A DNA stretch of 64,000 nucleotides from the NCBI GenBank assembly GCA_016125185.1, contig WGMG01000001.1, positions 310,001 to 374,000 on the forward strand. The letters run 5' to 3'. Each line of letters starts with the position of its first letter. Positions within the stretch are counted from its first letter, which is position 1. This stretch comes from Armatimonadota bacterium. GTDB lineage: Bacteria > Armatimonadota > Fimbriimonadia > Fimbriimonadales > Fimbriimonadaceae. A program made the translations under genes and the position numbers. The notes below the pieces were generated by a model, which worked only from the letters and a program-made list of their open reading frames with translations, searched no databases and had not been told where the DNA came from. This document shows, piece by piece, positions 30,739-39,739 of this stretch.

Positions 30739-32541
30739 ATGTCCACCGAAGTTTTGCCACCGCCGGTACGCTGGGACCTCAGCGCACTCTTCGCCTCGAT
30801 CGATGATCCGAAGATCGAAGCCACTTGGAAAGAGGCCAACGCTCGCGCCGACGCTTTCGCCACTCAGTACCGAGGCAAAATCGACGATCCGGCCCTCACG
30901 GCGGATACGCTCGCCAGCGCCCTCACTTCGCTGGAAGAGCTGACGACCGACGTTGCCAAGCCGCTTTCTTTCGCCAACCTTCTCTTTGCCGGCGATGCCA
31001 GCAATCCGACCATCGGTGCGTTTATGCAGGCGCAGATGGAGAAGGCTACCGAGCTTCAGGTCAAGCTGATGTTCTTCGAGCTTGAACTGCAGGCCGCTTC
31101 GGGCGAGGTGATCGACCGACTGCTCGCCGATCCCAAGCTCAGCAACTACGTACACCACGTCACGGTTGCGCGAACCTACAGCCCGTACCGCCTCAGCGAG
31201 AAGGAAGAGGTGCTGATGGAAGAGATGGCCAATACCGGCTCGCGGGCATGGAATCGGCTGTTCGACGAGGTGACCTCGAACTACGTCTTCAAGGTGGACA
31301 AAGACGGCGAAACCGAGGAAATGAGCCAGCAGGAAGTGCTGGCCCTGCTTCGCCACGAAGACCGAGCGACCCGACAGGCAGGAGCCGACGCTCTGACGGC
31401 TGGCCTCAAGGACCAGGAGCGGGTGCTCACTTTCATCTTCAACACGATGCTCCAGGATAAGTCGATCGAAGACCGCGTTCGGGGCTTTGAGTTCGCCCAG
31501 CAGTCGCGCCACATGGCCAACGAACTCGACCGGGAGACGGTCGATCTCGTCGTCCGGCTATGCCGCGAATACTATCCGATGGTCGCGCGTTACTACGCCG
31601 TCAAGCGACAGATTCTCGACCTTCCCGAGCTCACTCACATCGACCGATACGCACCGCTTTTCGCGGCTGAAGAAAAGGTCAGTTGGGAGCGGGCGCAAGG
31701 CATCGTCCTCGACGCCTTCGGCGAGTTCTCGGGCGAGATCCGCAGTCGAGCCGCCGAATTCTTCGATAAGAATTGGATCGATGCCGAGCCGCGAAAGGGC
31801 AAGACCGGTGGCGCATTTTGTAGCTACAACACGCCGGACACGCACCCGGTTATCCTCCAGTCGTTCCTGAACAAGATGGACGACGTGATGACGCTTGCTC
31901 ACGAGTTGGGGCACGGCGTCCACGCATCCCTTAGCCGCGCGCAGACGTACTTCAACTACCATGGCACTCTGCCGCTGGCCGAACTCGCCAGCACCTTTGG
32001 TGAGATGCTGGTGTTCGAAAAGCTCGTGTCGGGAGCATCGACCAAGGACAAGTTGGCCTTGTACGCCGAAAAGATCGAGGGCATTTTTGCGACGGTCTTC
32101 CGTCAAGCGGCGATGTACCAATTCGAGATGCGCATCCACGAGGCGCGACGCACCGAGGGCGAGCTAACCTCCGACGAATATGGTGAAATTTGGCAGGAAG
32201 AACTCCAGGCGATGTTCGGCGACTCGGTGAAGTTGGGCGATCAGCACCGATGCTGGTGGATGTACGTCAGCCATTTCATGGCGGTGCCGTTCTACGTGTA
32301 CGCCTACTCGTTCGGCGAACTCCTGGTTCTCAGCTTGTACGAAATGGCCAAGAAGCAAGGTCCTTCGTTTGCCGACGACTACATCGAGGTTTTGCGCCTT
32401 GGTGGCTCGAAGTCGCCGACCGAACTGATGGCAATGGTCAACGTCGACCTCAAATCCGAAGCCTTCTGGCGCGGCGGATTCGCGGCTATGGATCAGTTCT
32501 TGGTCGAGTTCGAGCGACTGTGGGCGGAGTACAACGCCTAA
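30739..32541 (+). CDS. pepF: Oligoendopeptidase F, M3 family
   Basis: 600 aa, the usual family length. An N-terminal helical domain precedes the M3 catalytic domain with the zinc motif LAHELGHGVHA (near 388-397) and downstream Glu ligand in ELASTFGEML. The CSYNTPDTHPVILQSF and YQFEMRIHEARR segments are typical. It cleaves short cytosolic peptides. Overlapping TAATCT and TAAACT boxes lie just before the ATG. The stop codon overlaps that of the convergent M4-like gene by four bases. Confidence 0.93.
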   Translation: MSTEVLPPPVRWDLSALFASIDDPKIEATWKEANARADAFATQYRGKIDDPALTADTLASALTSLEELTTDVAKPLSFANLLFAGDASNPTIGAFMQAQMEKATELQVKLMFFELELQAASGEVIDRLLADPKLSNYVHHVTVARTYSPYRLSEKEEVLMEEMANTGSRAWNRLFDEVTSNYVFKVDKDGETEEMSQQEVLALLRHEDRATRQAGADALTAGLKDQERVLTFIFNTMLQDKSIEDRVRGFEFAQQSRHMANELDRETVDLVVRLCREYYPMVARYYAVKRQILDLPELTHIDRYAPLFAAEEKVSWERAQGIVLDAFGEFSGEIRSRAAEFFDKNWIDAEPRKGKTGGAFCSYNTPDTHPVILQSFLNKMDDVMTLAHELGHGVHASLSRAQTYFNYHGTLPLAELASTFGEMLVFEKLVSGASTKDKLALYAEKIEGIFATVFRQAAMYQFEMRIHEARRTEGELTSDEYGEIWQEELQAMFGDSVKLGDQHRCWWMYVSHFMAVPFYVYAYSFGELLVLSLYEMAKKQGPSFADDYIEVLRLGGSKSPTELMAMVNVDLKSEAFWRGGFAAMDQFLVEFERLWAEYNA

Positions 32542-33554
32542 AGATCGACGCGCTTCCAGCCAAGGTCGATCGACTGATACACCTTGGCTGAGTAGCCCAC
32601 TCGGGCGATGTCGCGCGTGAGTCCGGCAAGATCGGAAAACTGGGCGGTGCGATCAAGTCGTTGCATCGCCTGGTACCAGACATTGCCGATGGTGTCCCAC
32701 GAGTACCCGCCGATCTCTTTTGCCGCCAAGTAGAAAGCGTGGTTGGGAATGCCGGAGTTAACGTGGACCTCGTTTGGACCGGAGTAGAGGTCCTGCATGC
32801 GGCACCTTTGGGGATCAGTCCCGAGAAAAGGGTCGTTGATGAACGCTGTGCCAGGAGCCATCAGACTTCGGATGGCGAGACGAGTCTCGGCCCGGGTCAC
32901 GATATCCCGACCGATCAGCCAGTCGGCTTGGCTAAAGCGCTGCTTGCGCGCATATTGCCGAGCCATGCTGCCAAGGACGTCGGCAAAATGCTCGTGGAGG
33001 GCGCCAGATTGCCCCGAGGGCTCCAGTTCGCAGTCGATGCTGACGATGCGGTGAGCCAGACCCAAGGCAATGACGTCGACACCCGACGTGAAGTGGTGAA
33101 ACGCTTTGCCGTCTCCGTCGCCACAGATCAGTTGGTTGCCGTTCCATAGGCTGTTGGAGAACCCGGGACCCTCGCAAATAGTCACCGCGATTGGCATTCC
33201 CTTGTTGTCGATCGAGTCGCGGTCAAACTTTTCCTTGAAGAATCGATAGGTCGCGCCGACTCCGCCGTAGGCTTCGTCGATGAGGGGATCACCGGTCGGC
33301 GGATCGCCTTCGGACCGTCTCAAGTCGCCAGGCAGTTCGCCACCATCGCCGCAGATGCAGAAAATTTGGCGGCAGAGACCAGAATCTGCTTCGAAAGTAG
33401 TTGGTTCAGGCTCGATTGACGGGAGAGAGCGCAGGGCGGCGGTTAGTCCCGCGGTTCGCTGTGCGCAAACTCGAATTGCCGGATCGGCCGAATTTGCCAT
33501 ATGTTCGAGGATGTAAGGCGGGAGAAGGCAATAAGGTCGATTCTGTTCGCGCAT
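32538..33554 (-). CDS. Thermolysin/protealysin (M4) homologue with degenerate HExxH
   Basis: 338 aa from the ATG at 33554 (MREQNRPYCLLPPYIL), which matches the protealysin-type start; a GTG at 33599 gives a 15-residue extension. The M4 fold is recognisable: GPGFSNSLWNGNQLICGDGDG, GQSGALHEHFADVLG (third zinc ligand Glu kept), and NEVHVNSGIPNHAFYLAA (active-site His kept). Where thermolysins have HELTH, the sequence reads LGLAH, so the first zinc His and the catalytic Glu are gone. No signal peptide is visible. It is probably a non-proteolytic M4 fold with a binding or regulatory role. Perfect dyads lie upstream. Confidence 0.85.
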   Translation of the reverse strand: MREQNRPYCLLPPYILEHMANSADPAIRVCAQRTAGLTAALRSLPSIEPEPTTFEADSGLCRQIFCICGDGGELPGDLRRSEGDPPTGDPLIDEAYGGVGATYRFFKEKFDRDSIDNKGMPIAVTICEGPGFSNSLWNGNQLICGDGDGKAFHHFTSGVDVIALGLAHRIVSIDCELEPSGQSGALHEHFADVLGSMARQYARKQRFSQADWLIGRDIVTRAETRLAIRSLMAPGTAFINDPFLGTDPQRCRMQDLYSGPNEVHVNSGIPNHAFYLAAKEIGGYSWDTIGNVWYQAMQRLDRTAQFSDLAGLTRDIARVGYSAKVYQSIDLGWKRVDL

Positions 33555-33614
33555 GACAGCTTGAAAGACCAAATAATACGCCGCCGCCCAATCTATCACG
33601 AACGGTAAAAAAGA

Positions 33615-33641
33615 TGACCAAAAAGTATAACTTTTTGGTCA
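33615..33641. promoter_or_regulatory. Perfect 12-base-arm dyad upstream of the M4-like gene
   Basis: TGACCAAAAAGT and ACTTTTTGGTCA flank three bases, about 60 bases before the ATG at 33554. With no GC-rich stem or T-run on the gene's side, an operator for a dimeric repressor is more likely than a terminator. Confidence 0.55.
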
Positions 33642-33645
33642 AATT

Positions 33646-33662
33646 ATTGACTTTAAGTCAAT
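33646..33662. promoter_or_regulatory. Second perfect dyad, ATTGACTT/AAGTCAAT
   Basis: Eight-base arms around one base, four bases from the first dyad, in an AT-rich island. Both half-sites begin with TTGAC, as in 33615-33641, so one regulator may bind both. Confidence 0.5.
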
Positions 33663-33663
33663 A

Positions 33664-33708
33664 AAAAAAGCTCCTCGATCAAATGTAGCCCGTCAAGGAA
33701 GCTTTTTT
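33664..33708. terminator. Bidirectional terminator after the STAND ATPase gene
   Basis: AAAAAAGCTCCT pairs with AGGAAGCTTTTTT (one bulged A), a stem with A and T runs on both sides. The 376-base gap 33555-33930 holds this terminator, the two dyads and about 220 bases (33709-33930) in which I see no convincing gene. Confidence 0.7.
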
Positions 33709-33930
33709 CCCCACATGCAATCCGAGAGCGAACGCGAAAACCCCATACGTTGCACGTTTCGACTTTCTCAAAGCTGGCTTTAAGCCGAGATCGGGCGAGC
33801 GAACCCGCCCGAATAATGGCGCGAAGAGCCCTCGGCAGCCGGGCGATGAGAACCCAGATCGCAATATCAAACGATTGATCGCATGCGAATCTATCACCCG
33901 GCATCAAATATTTCGAGAAATTTCTGAACC

Positions 33931-36165
33931 TTAACTGGAGAGCCGCTTCGCAAGCTGCATCCAGCCACCCGGCGTGGCCTGCAGCCGCGGATCGGTCTCA
34001 GCAATTTGGTTGGCCTCGCAGAGTTCGGCGAGTCGCGTTCGGCACCTGCCGAGGTCCCTGGTTTGGTACTCGTTGAGCGCGTCGATGGCGGAAACCAAGC
34101 ACTCCAGAGCCAGCGAGACTTCGCCTTTGCGTTCATAAAGGCTTGCCAAGCTGGCGAGGGTTCGCGCAGAGTGGATGACCCGATGCCCTTCGGAGACCAA
34201 TTTGAGCTGGGTTCGAAGCGTTGAGATTGCCAACTCGGTTTCGCCGAGCTTGTCGTAGCTTCGTGCCAAACCTTGGTATACGAAAGGCAGCATTTTGAGG
34301 TCTCGGCAGGACTCCAGACTAACATTGGTCTTGTCGATCCAGGCTCGAGCTTCCGCTTGGTCACCCGCTTCCAGGTGCATCTGCGCTCGGATGATCTGGG
34401 CGGTGGCTTCAAGCTCGATCAAGCCGTGCTCTCGGCACAACGCCTCGGACTGCTCCAGATAGTCGTACGCCTCTTCATGGTTGCCTTCCTCGAACGCTTG
34501 CCAAGCAAGGTCGGTCAGGGTGTCTGCGCCGGCTTCGAAGTCGCCGATCTTGTTGGCAATGGCGAGCCGTTGACCCCAAAGATCGCGGCAGGTCCGATTG
34601 TCTTGCTTGATCGAGGCGAGGGCGCCACGCAGGCCGAGCATTCGGATGGAAAGCTCTTCGCGGCGGAGCCCGATTGCCGCGTCGCACAGCGCCTCAAAGT
34701 CGGCCAAGCGACCCGATTCAAAGTAGGTGCGGCAGAGCCCATCGGCGAAGGTCTGAATTTCGTTTCCGTCGCCGGACTCGATGGCAAGGCGGCTGGCCTT
34801 GCGAAGCTGAGCCTGGTTGCTCAGCAATTCCGTCGTTCCCGCCACCCAGCGGTCTGCCGCCATCGCCTGTCCGATCGATGCCGCTCGGTGCGCAAAGAGA
34901 GAAACAAAGCGGTCGGTGGTAGGTTCGCCCAGCTTTGGTTCGCCCAAGTATTCGATGACTGAATCTGCGACTTGATACCCTTGGCGACCCTCATGCGAAA
35001 CCGACGCGATGAGTGCGCATTGGTGAAGCCGAATGAGAGAGGACGAAAAGTCTTCGTCGTTGAGGTCGGAAACGATTCGACCGTCGTCGTAAAGGAATGG
35101 ACCGGAGAAGTTCGAGAGCGCTCGAAGGGCTGATTGGTCCTGGTCCGCCAGCATGCGGAAGCAGCCATCGACCGACGAGTGGACAACGCCACCGGAGTAC
35201 GCCTGTCGCGTCGTCGCTTCGGCGAGTTGGTGGGAAAGGTTGCCGATTTCCTGGGTCCGAAGGCACCCGGCCGAGATGGCGATGGCGAGGGGAACGCCCT
35301 GAGTCAGTCGGCACAACTGGATGATTGCGGCTCGATGGTCTTCGATCTTCTCTAACCACGGCTTGGCCAATCGCGTGAAGAGCGAAATGGCCGGCGAGTT
35401 AGGTGACTCATCGGACAGATCGAACGGCTTGAGCTCGAAGTTCTCAATGGCGCTGTTCTCCGAAAGGGCGCGACATGATGTAACGATCGAAAGATTTTCG
35501 CCGCTGGCAATCAGACTCTTGAGTTCTTGTTCGATAAAATCAAGGCCGTCGATCCGGTCGAGGATTAGAACAGTTGGAACTTCGTGCAGAGTACGTCGAA
35601 CCGCGCTTTCGACATCGGAATCGGTCTCAATTTGGAGCGCATTCTTCAGTTTGTCGGTGAAGTCGGCCTTGCTGATGACGGTCGTGCAGGAGAGGTAGGC
35701 CACCCTTCGGTTACTTCTCAGCTTCTTGGCCAATGCACCGAGCAGAACCGTCTTCCCGATGCCGCCGATGCCGGTGATGGCGAGGAGGCGGCTTTCGCCA
35801 TTCAAGACTTTGTTCTCGATCTCGCCGATTTCTCGATCCCGCCCGATTACGACGCAGTCAGGCTCCGATTCAACTACGGTCCCTTCGCCCAACGCCTCGG
35901 CCCAGAGCGTGTAGACGGCTTCCAGGAATGGGTTGGTAAAGGGTTGGGGCTGACTGCCCTTGCGAAGGGAGTCGATGGCCCGACCGGTTTTGACAAGCCG
36001 CGCACGAACCTCAGATCGCTCGATCGACTGGCGTTCGACGAAGTCGATCAAGGGGGCGTCGCCCTTGCCAGAAGCGTAAAGGACGAGGTCCCTCAACAGC
36101 ACTGGCGGTACGGTAATGCGGTGCTCAGCGTCGAGCGCCGCCAAAAAGTAAATCAAATCATCCAT
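33931..36165 (-). CDS. STAND/NB-ARC ATPase with TPR-like C-terminal repeats
   Basis: 744 aa. Residues 1-95 are a helical N-terminal region of no known family. The nucleotide-binding STAND module runs about 105-330: an initial VVIGRDREIGEIE, Walker A GIGGIGKT (about 132-139), Walker B VLILDRID, sensor TSCRAL and the GVPLAI motif. A winged-helix-like stretch follows, then helical TPR-like repeats from about 430 to the end (AWQAFEEGNHEEAYDYLEQSEALCREHG, GLARSYDKLGETELAISTL). STAND proteins are ATP-switched scaffolds or regulators that sense through such repeats. The start overlaps the upstream sigma-like gene by eight bases, so they form one unit. The target is unknown. Confidence 0.88.
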   Translation of the reverse strand: MDDLIYFLAALDAEHRITVPPVLLRDLVLYASGKGDAPLIDFVERQSIERSEVRARLVKTGRAIDSLRKGSQPQPFTNPFLEAVYTLWAEALGEGTVVESEPDCVVIGRDREIGEIENKVLNGESRLLAITGIGGIGKTVLLGALAKKLRSNRRVAYLSCTTVISKADFTDKLKNALQIETDSDVESAVRRTLHEVPTVLILDRIDGLDFIEQELKSLIASGENLSIVTSCRALSENSAIENFELKPFDLSDESPNSPAISLFTRLAKPWLEKIEDHRAAIIQLCRLTQGVPLAIAISAGCLRTQEIGNLSHQLAEATTRQAYSGGVVHSSVDGCFRMLADQDQSALRALSNFSGPFLYDDGRIVSDLNDEDFSSSLIRLHQCALIASVSHEGRQGYQVADSVIEYLGEPKLGEPTTDRFVSLFAHRAASIGQAMAADRWVAGTTELLSNQAQLRKASRLAIESGDGNEIQTFADGLCRTYFESGRLADFEALCDAAIGLRREELSIRMLGLRGALASIKQDNRTCRDLWGQRLAIANKIGDFEAGADTLTDLAWQAFEEGNHEEAYDYLEQSEALCREHGLIELEATAQIIRAQMHLEAGDQAEARAWIDKTNVSLESCRDLKMLPFVYQGLARSYDKLGETELAISTLRTQLKLVSEGHRVIHSARTLASLASLYERKGEVSLALECLVSAIDALNEYQTRDLGRCRTRLAELCEANQIAETDPRLQATPGGWMQLAKRLSS

Positions 36166-37204
36166 CGTTTTTTGCCCTCCAAGACAAGATGTCGTCCAGC
36201 AGTCGGTTGGCTATCCAAGTGTTGATGTTGCGGATTCGATAGCCGGCCACGTCGGCGGCGGGCGAGATCCGCTCCAAAATGTCGTCCTGGGGTAGTTCGT
36301 GCAGGACGTAATACTGGAAAACGAGTCGTTTCCAGAGGGAGTTTGCCCCTAACGCCTGATCTCGAAACGGAATTCCTTCCGTCCGGCCCCAAAGGTTTAT
36401 CATCTTTTTAACAAAGGGATATCGCGAACGACATCTATCATGAATTTCCAAGCCTCTTTCCCGGGATAGCGGTTTTGCAGTTTTTGCTAGTGCAAGCGAG
36501 AACGGAATTCCGGCTCGGTAACGCATCAAAATAAAATCGACTTCTATACATGTCCAGTCGCCGATGGCCACTAATTCGGGATCGTTGCGCTTGGCGTGAA
36601 GCCAGATTCGGTCGAACTCGTCGTTGCTCCAAGATTCCAGGCCAAGGATCTCTGCGCAAAGCCTATCGCTGGAAATATAGAGCTCGTTGAAAGCGACCTT
36701 TCTTAGTACCCAGGGCGAAGAAATCCATTCCAAAAAGTCATCTGGTTGGATGGGTGGTGGTTGTCCGGCCGCGACAACCTTGAGCGCTTCTTCCGGCGAA
36801 AGTCCGTCGATGAAATGGAGTTGGGCGGCCAGGCAACGCTTATGGCCGTCTTCGGGCTCGACTCCCAGCCAGACTTCGTCAGCGACACTGTAAAGCCTTT
36901 CTCGGTCCAAGACCTTCGCGATGATCCCATGAACATCGATTCGATGGTCTTCGGTTTCGCGCAGGGGGCTGCTCGGGTTAGGGTTCTTGGCTGCGTGGCG
37001 GATGCCGTTGCGACACGATTCGTATAGGTATCCGTACCAAGCGGAGGCGGAATTGAACTGGAGTCGGGACCAGTGGTTGAGGATTCCGACAAACAGATTT
37101 TGGACGATTTCATCGCTTTCGTCTTCGGAGACGCCGCGCGAAAGGAGAAACTTCTGAAGAACCCGGCGACCGTCATCATACAGGACGGAATAGGACTCCT
37201 GCAT
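36158..37204 (-). CDS. ECF sigma-70-like protein with unusual C-terminal region
   Basis: 348 aa. Residues about 5-80 resemble sigma-70 region 2 (YDDGRRVLQKFLLSRG, EDESDEIVQNLFVGILNHW, SASAWYGYLYESCRNGIRH). The rest is not a normal region 4: about residues 105-345 hold Trp-rich helical segments (DDFLEWISSPWVLRKVAF, DRIWLHAKRND) with repeats of a Leu-rich pattern. It is longer than ordinary ECF factors (170-220 aa). Gene order and an eight-base overlap with the STAND ATPase suggest the ATPase controls or partners this factor. It could also be a sigma-derived adaptor without promoter binding. Confidence 0.65.
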   Translation of the reverse strand: MQESYSVLYDDGRRVLQKFLLSRGVSEDESDEIVQNLFVGILNHWSRLQFNSASAWYGYLYESCRNGIRHAAKNPNPSSPLRETEDHRIDVHGIIAKVLDRERLYSVADEVWLGVEPEDGHKRCLAAQLHFIDGLSPEEALKVVAAGQPPPIQPDDFLEWISSPWVLRKVAFNELYISSDRLCAEILGLESWSNDEFDRIWLHAKRNDPELVAIGDWTCIEVDFILMRYRAGIPFSLALAKTAKPLSRERGLEIHDRCRSRYPFVKKMINLWGRTEGIPFRDQALGANSLWKRLVFQYYVLHELPQDDILERISPAADVAGYRIRNINTWIANRLLDDILSWRAKNDG

Positions 37205-37336
37205 TTCTTCGCCGGTAGTACCGAATTTCGTCAGGGCTCGTTCGATCCGTCGTTTCGATTCCTTATGGTTCGGCCAAGAATTTTCTATTGGGCGATTATA
37301 CAGTTTTATCCAGATTGACTCCTAGTGACTTCCGTA

Positions 37337-37362
37337 CCGGGTTTTGACCTCAAGACCCCCGG
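37337..37362. promoter_or_regulatory. Hairpin in the divergent intergenic region
   Basis: CCGGGTTTTGA pairs with TCAAGACCCCCGG (one G-T pair, one extra C). It lies in the 328-base region 37205-37532 between the divergent sigma-like and Cys-rich genes. A further GC-rich region (37400-37440) with CCGCAAAG follows; I see no gene or known riboswitch. Confidence 0.4.
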
Positions 37363-37532
37363 CTAACCCCACCAGGTTGTTCGAGAACGAAACGGATGGG
37401 TCGGCGGACCTAGCCGCAAAGACGGAGCCGTGCGCGGCATATTAGAGACGATCTGACTAAGAAAGCAAGGATTGTGTTAGATCGATCTCGCGAATGGGGT
37501 TTGGTGGGGTAATCCTCATTTGGACTAATAGC

Positions 37533-38321
37533 ATGGAAAACCCCCGATTCATTCCCCTTACTTCTGACGACACGCTGTGGGTCTACGACACGGATGACAT
37601 TCAGCCGCTGATCAACGGAAACCTCGAGCAATGGTACGACGAGACAATCAATCCGCTATCGAACTGTCCTCGGCCCGACAGCGGTTTGATCCTGAAGTCG
37701 ATGCCTCAAGGACCGACCGGCTACGCATACCAAGTGGTCGGTGTGTGCGGCACGCCCTTGGTGCTGGTGGCTGGCCTCGAACAAGCCACTTCGAAGCCGC
37801 AGGCAGGTGGCTTGGTCGAACTTGAGAAGCCGCAGGGATTTTGGGACTGGTTCGAGCAAGCGCTCTCGACCCAGCCGGGACAATATGGAGGAATTGAGTT
37901 CTTTTTCCTGACCAAGGAGATGCAGCTGTACGTTCATCTCCAACTGGGACGCGACCACAACTTTGCCCTTCAGTACCTCAACGGGGTTGTCTCGCAGCCG
38001 GGCTACGCTCAGTGGATGTTGTACGGTAGTTCAACGCAAGGGTGCCTTATCGACCGAACCTTCTGGACTGTTGATTCCAACGGAGACAAAACTCCGCTCG
38101 ACGTGAGCAAAATCACGTTTGCCCTCGACGATGCCAACGTCCAAACAACCGAGGCGGGCACTCAGGATATGTGCCCGGCTGACTGCTGCTATCTGGCCTG
38201 CGGCGTGACCGCCTGCTGCCTCAGCAAGTTCGAACCGGACAGCGGAACCGTGATCGGAAGCGTGGACATGGCTCTGGTCAAGACGTACTGCGACGATTGT
38301 CACGGCGGGCCCTGCCTGTAA
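37533..38321 (+). CDS. Orphan protein with Cys-rich C-terminus
   Basis: 262 aa from the ATG at 37533 (MENPRFIPLTSDDTLWVYD); an ATG at 37494 would add 13 residues and has a TAGATC box nine bases before it. No signal peptide. The body is a soluble alpha/beta-looking domain with Trp and aromatic residues (GFWDWFEQAL, IEFFFLTKEMQLYVHLQLG). The last 60 residues hold nine Cys: CPADCCYLACGVTACC and YCDDCHGGPCL. This may bind metal or a cofactor. I know no family. It is divergent from the sigma-like/STAND pair and ends in a strong hairpin. It is a candidate target or sensor of that pair. Confidence 0.7.
   Translation: MENPRFIPLTSDDTLWVYDTDDIQPLINGNLEQWYDETINPLSNCPRPDSGLILKSMPQGPTGYAYQVVGVCGTPLVLVAGLEQATSKPQAGGLVELEKPQGFWDWFEQALSTQPGQYGGIEFFFLTKEMQLYVHLQLGRDHNFALQYLNGVVSQPGYAQWMLYGSSTQGCLIDRTFWTVDSNGDKTPLDVSKITFALDDANVQTTEAGTQDMCPADCCYLACGVTACCLSKFEPDSGTVIGSVDMALVKTYCDDCHGGPCL

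Positions 38322-39739
<1,418 letters not shown>

Follow-up and report, generated by a model that had tools for sequence, protein, structure and literature searches.

A three-gene cassette in a 4.5-Mb Armatimonadota genome combines a divergent ECF-type sigma factor, a STAND ATPase whose N-terminus is predicted to hold an anti-sigma-like domain, and an orphan protein. On the evidence of sequence comparison and structural modelling, the best explanation of this arrangement is a sigma/anti-sigma switch gated by the STAND protein, a reading to which we assign a probability of about 0.64. The cassette lies in a stretch of 64,000 nucleotides, hereafter the window, that was analysed as a whole. The sigma gene (P0001, 348 aa; 36158..37204) and the STAND gene (P0002, 744 aa; 33931..36165) are both on the minus strand and overlap by 8 bases (36158-36165), and the orphan gene (P0003) diverges from the pair on the plus strand; the first-pass annotation had described the three open reading frames, the overlap and the divergent orphan exactly so. 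That the three genes are real and belong together is confirmed. The listed orphan reading frame spans 37494-38321 (275 aa), and its true start is probably the ATG at 37533, which gives a gene of 37533..38321. At the other divergent start, the profile of the P0001 family begins to match at 37264, and the residues IERAL align, so that about 20 codons of family homology precede the P0001 ATG at 37204, with no ATG, GTG or TTG in frame. This segment (37205..37264, minus strand) is a probable coding extension, for which a rare start codon and a lost start are the alternatives.

The recognition of P0001 as a sigma factor requires family-level comparison. By itself the protein scores below threshold against Pfam Sigma70_r2 (16.1 bits, E 0.0099; cut-off 24), it is absent from the 37 Sigma70_r2 matches of its genome, and it matches NCBIfam TIGR02985 at E 2e-4. 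When the sigma2 part of the family profile (aa 1-75; 36980..37204, minus strand) was aligned by hhalign with 11 ordinary Armatimonadota ECF sigmas, the match reached P 7.7e-17; a profile from the 28-row family alignment also matched ECF sigma sequences in the PDB with E-values down to 2.5e-8, and the family profile retrieved ordinary ECF sigmas in nearly all of the 291 genomes searched. The AlphaFold2 model of P0001 (mean pLDDT 89) superposed on CnrH with a VIA Z of 8.8 and an rmsd of 2.1 over 75 aa; a plain Foldseek search with the same model returned no significant E-value. The family retains the sigma2 core, of which an EIVQ-LF motif resembling region 2.2 is part. Profile and predicted structure thus confirm P0001 as a divergent ECF sigma, and the earlier designation of its N-terminus as sigma-region-2-like stands, with similarity to sigma-70 region 2 that does not fall below background.

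The C-terminal 240 residues had been described as unlike region 4, and this proved too strong. They are better read, from sequence comparison, as degenerate, duplicated HTH-like units with weak similarity to sigma4. The first unit (D1, aa 105-192; 36629..36892, minus strand) scored 22.5 against ECF sigma4, compared with 14.2 for the best of 20 column shuffles, and a possible middle unit (D2, aa 196-276; 36377..36619, minus strand) gave a marginal 15.7 against a shuffled maximum of 12.0. The C-terminal unit (D3, aa 280-348; 36161..36367, minus strand) repeats D1 with P 8.9e-7, a test in which D3 was taken as aa 262-348, the HTH part being 280-348; this block (LWKRLVFQY...) is the most conserved in the sigma family. 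The recognition helix region is altered in the sigma4-like part of P0001. Because sigma4 is degenerate, promoter recognition by the protein is uncertain, and a search of the sigma and orphan upstream regions for a common promoter motif, a weak test, found none above shuffles.

P0002 has the features of the STAND/NB-ARC class, a P-loop NB-ARC module followed by a repeat-containing C-terminus. The NB-ARC NTPase (aa 106-316; 35218..35850, minus strand) scores 27.2 bits against a Pfam cut-off of 23.5 and includes the P-loop GIGGIGKT (aa 132-139; 35749-35772, minus strand), and profile matches place a TPR-like region, the presumed sensor, at aa 526-718 (34012..34590, minus strand). These elements of the first-pass annotation hold; what it missed is that the N-terminal ~95 residues contain a recognisable module. 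As a single-sequence search with the STAND N-terminus found no homologues, profiles were needed to see it. The module is related to the N-terminus of gene X, a gene of about 370 aa that accompanies the sigma gene at most sister loci: with the window and loci L039 and L051 combined, hhalign gave a score of 53 (P 2.5e-9), the best of 40 column shuffles reaching 16, and the window N-terminus alone scored 30. The resulting anti-sigma-like domain covers aa 4-72 (35950..36156, minus strand). Its similarity to zf-HC2 (score 26.6, shuffled maximum 15.5) is weaker than that of the X N-terminus.

The X N-terminus itself matched zf-HC2 with a score of 31.6 (prob 73), compared with a shuffled maximum of 15.8 and scores of at most 19 for ten other families; both X and the STAND N-terminus lack the HxxxCxxC zinc ligands. 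A remote relationship of X to zinc anti-sigma domains, with the zinc ligands missing, is suggested. Run over the 291 genomes, the X profile gave three weak matches outside X genes and fused STANDs. Two were zf-HC2 anti-sigma-like proteins, one of which (L180 3494-3988) is encoded directly downstream of an ECF gene; the third (L178 3299-4540) was an ordinary ECF sigma, with regions 2 and 4 both above Pfam cut-offs, that bears an X-type domain C-terminal to region 4. Since the X profile retrieves zf-HC2 proteins and an ECF-fused domain, an anti-sigma role is the best reading of the X-type domain, as far as such remote homology can suggest it. X matched nothing significant in the PDB. X-like genes also occur without a sigma gene in two genomes (L181 6419-7492 and L182 1628-2746), where they sit between an aminotransferase gene and a folC-like gene of the Mur-ligase family.

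Searches for relatives of P0001 were positive in 16 of 101 close genomes and, over 291 genomes of the phylum, at about 30 places, with Armatimonadetes, Abditibacteriales, Chthonomonadaceae and Fimbriimonas as the named relatives; the 28 aligned rows are all from Armatimonadota and share 18-34% identity. Among the 26 loci with usable flanks, X follows the sigma gene in 19 and a STAND gene does so directly, without X, in seven, the window included. A STAND gene belongs to the cluster in 24 of the 26, the X-type loci L048 and L054 having none nearby. The earlier proposal that sigma factor and STAND ATPase form one unit is thereby upheld, and homologues of the window genes do co-occur. At X-type loci the STAND protein begins with a CHAT domain, a caspase-like protease (in the six proteins scanned, Pfam E-values run from 1e-23 to 1e-31), with the His (HFxGH; HLSGH in L056) and Cys positions kept in 17 of 17 aligned proteins. 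The CHAT-STAND gene of L053 (12379-15513) is broken up into three ORFs, probably through sequencing errors or because it is a pseudogene. No CHAT domain was found at the window locus, and window-type STANDs lack it; the sole CHAT protein of the window genome is encoded elsewhere, with neither X nor sigma beside it. The X-type loci are spread over several families of the phylum and in the sigma tree the window-type loci group together (the labels change twice, compared with a mean of 6.5 changes for shuffled labels, in a test that counted contig-end loci such as L102 and L105 as X-type without evidence for that label), and for these reasons the CHAT-less form is probably derived. An anti-sigma-like domain at the STAND N-terminus is not universal among the seven CHAT-less loci: by sequence, four have a shorter N-terminus, in which the X-type domain is weak (L044) or not detectable (L052, L055 and L058).

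The orphan is the third conserved member. A profile search of the 291 genomes found 15 strong relatives, and all 15 adjoin a sigma-family gene; they generally lie downstream of the STAND gene in convergent orientation, and the window copy is divergent. Among the weaker relatives, which occur elsewhere, two are beside other STAND genes: L138 and L139 lie directly downstream of BTAD-STAND and guanylate-cyclase-like-STAND genes. The orphan had no match in Pfam, NCBIfam, PADLOC or the PDB sequences, and its predicted structure (pLDDT 75) had no significant Foldseek match and a VIA Z of at most 3.1. H148, C236, K263 and Y265 are invariant among 18 relatives. The first-pass annotation had characterised the protein as Cys-rich; its link to the sigma factor is borne out, and its Cys cluster turns out to be mostly specific to the window copy, C236 being the sole invariant Cys. 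Most likely, the orphan is either a product of the regulon or a partner that the complex senses or uses. Outside Fimbriimonadaceae, the gene after CHAT-STAND encodes a protein of 400-500 aa (L045, L101, L103, L104, L108, L109 and L110) that, judged by eye from its sequence, appears to be exported and barrel-like, and this family has no match in Pfam.

The cassette is accessory. The M3 peptidase gene and argG, which flank it in the window at a distance of 5.9 kb, lie close together in two close relatives (0.19 kb in G009 and 1.1 kb in G002), and the cassette is absent from that site in both, their own sigma-family loci being located on other contigs. Comparison with these relatives delimits an inserted segment (32542..38414) that holds the cassette and an M4 protealysin/thermolysin-like gene (32538-33599, minus strand; Pfam E 5e-35). 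The HExxH motif of the M4-like protein reads LGLAH, which would make it probably a dead enzyme; it was considered as a cassette member and rejected, since none of the other sigma loci has a relative of it. No relative was found in a plasmid search, nor in viral contigs with one degenerate pattern. A role in stress or conflict (defence) is suggested by a distribution that is patchy, by rapid divergence and by the variable site at which the segment is inserted.

We propose that in the resting state the anti-sigma-like domain borne by the STAND protein would bind and mask the sigma factor. A ligand of the TPR part, together with ADP/ATP exchange, would open the ATPase, and the sigma factor released in this way could then transcribe a small regulon; at the sister loci, an activated CHAT would instead cut X. 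The window form may have arisen by fusion of the anti-sigma domain to the STAND protein, with loss of CHAT and of the C-terminal part of X. That the pair constitutes a transcriptional switch had been anticipated from the sequence; the X-homologous STAND module now offers it a concrete route, and the CHAT domain of the sister loci had escaped notice. More tentatively, and with odds somewhat short of even, these loci may represent a CRISPR-free family of conflict switches built on an NLR-like ATPase that carries the anti-sigma domain, so that ligand recognition directly frees a dedicated sigma factor, with CHAT-STAND as the proteolytic form and the orphan as the conserved output.

Several other accounts of the cassette deserve consideration. 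P0001 might no longer recognise promoters and instead act as an adaptor or RNA polymerase-binding decoy that docks through sigma2 under control of the STAND protein. The degenerate, rearranged sigma4 units, the single-sequence sigma2 score under the Pfam cut-off and the negative promoter motif search all point this way, but the sigma2 core with EIVQ-LF is kept family-wide, the fold superposes on ECF sigmas and the anti-sigma-like partner is conserved, and we consider such a loss of function unlikely. The same switch chemistry could also serve an ordinary ligand-responsive regulator, in which a metabolite-sensing STAND protein controls a housekeeping sigma factor and plays no part in conflict. 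Metabolite-responsive STAND regulators such as MalT exist, and BTAD-STAND and cyclase-like-STAND genes have distant relatives of the orphan as neighbours. Against such a housekeeping function stand the patchy distribution in the genus, the insertion at a site that lacks it in relatives and the low identity within the family, and we give it little credence.

The cassette could, finally, be a regulated cell-death or defence module in which the sigma factor merely boosts expression and the executioner is the orphan in the window or CHAT in the sister loci. CHAT and STAND proteins are characteristic components of bacterial conflict systems (PMC8195603), and the unit is patchy, accessory and fast-diverging, with a strictly linked orphan. 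However, comparison of the orphan with known toxin and effector families and with known folds gave no match, outside Fimbriimonadaceae the apparently exported barrel-like protein takes its place, and PADLOC finds no system at the window locus; of the readings considered here, direct execution strikes us as the least probable. The STAND-gated switch would, if correct, join two fields, those of NLR-like STAND receptors and of sigma/anti-sigma switches. It would mean that the logic of protease-freed sigma factors in type III CRISPR modules also exists where the sensor consists wholly of protein, and that fusion of the anti-sigma domain with the receptor can dispense with the protease step. As both forms occur in one phylum, the mechanism is testable by comparison. 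In the open-licence literature, which takes in few subscription journals, we found no paper on a sigma factor with its anti-sigma domain on a STAND protein.

Elements of the proposed switch are recognisable in several described systems. Pairs of ECF sigmas and ZAS anti-sigmas such as SigW/RsiW share with it the sigma2 domain and an anti-sigma-like domain encoded beside the sigma gene; in contrast to them, P0001 has a duplicated sigma4-like C-terminus, and the anti-sigma-like domain lies within the STAND protein and lacks HxxxCxxC. MalT-like STANDs are metabolite-responsive regulators, and MalT and the SARP-type NB-ARC-TPR proteins may be compared with P0002 as NB-ARC modules with a TPR sensor that control transcription, but the window STAND would act through a separate sigma factor and not through a DNA-binding domain of its own. 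CalpT and CalpS have their roles in the sigma logic of the Calp module. The likeness of that type III CRISPR module, with its SAVED-Lon protease CalpL (PMC11417357), would be in the protease-released sigma factor; it differs in sensing cyclic oligonucleotides, in using a Lon protease and in having no STAND protein. The EACC2-caspase systems, a putative conflict system in which ECF sigmas occur near caspase-like proteins and DUF1822 (Kaur et al. 2021, PMC8195603), likewise link a caspase-like protein genomically to an ECF sigma, but X has no DUF1822 (no match at E up to 10 in 13 X proteins), CHAT-STAND replaces the EACC2-caspase and the sigma architecture is different. The closest described logic is that of CASP/Craspase in type III-E CRISPR, where Csx30, which binds and inhibits the ECF sigma CASP-sigma, is cleaved by Csx29, a CHAT protease of TPR-CHAT architecture (PMC10028731). 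ECF sigma, inhibitor and CHAT are also combined at the sister loci, and release of the sigma factor by the sensor part is the likeness that we propose. The sensor is Cas7-11 in Craspase and a STAND ATPase fused to CHAT at the sister loci, where the putative inhibitor X has a zf-HC2-like N-terminus; in the window there is no CHAT, and the STAND protein itself carries the putative inhibitor domain as a fusion. By this analogy, the cassette looks like a putative CRISPR-free counterpart of the protease-freed sigma factors.
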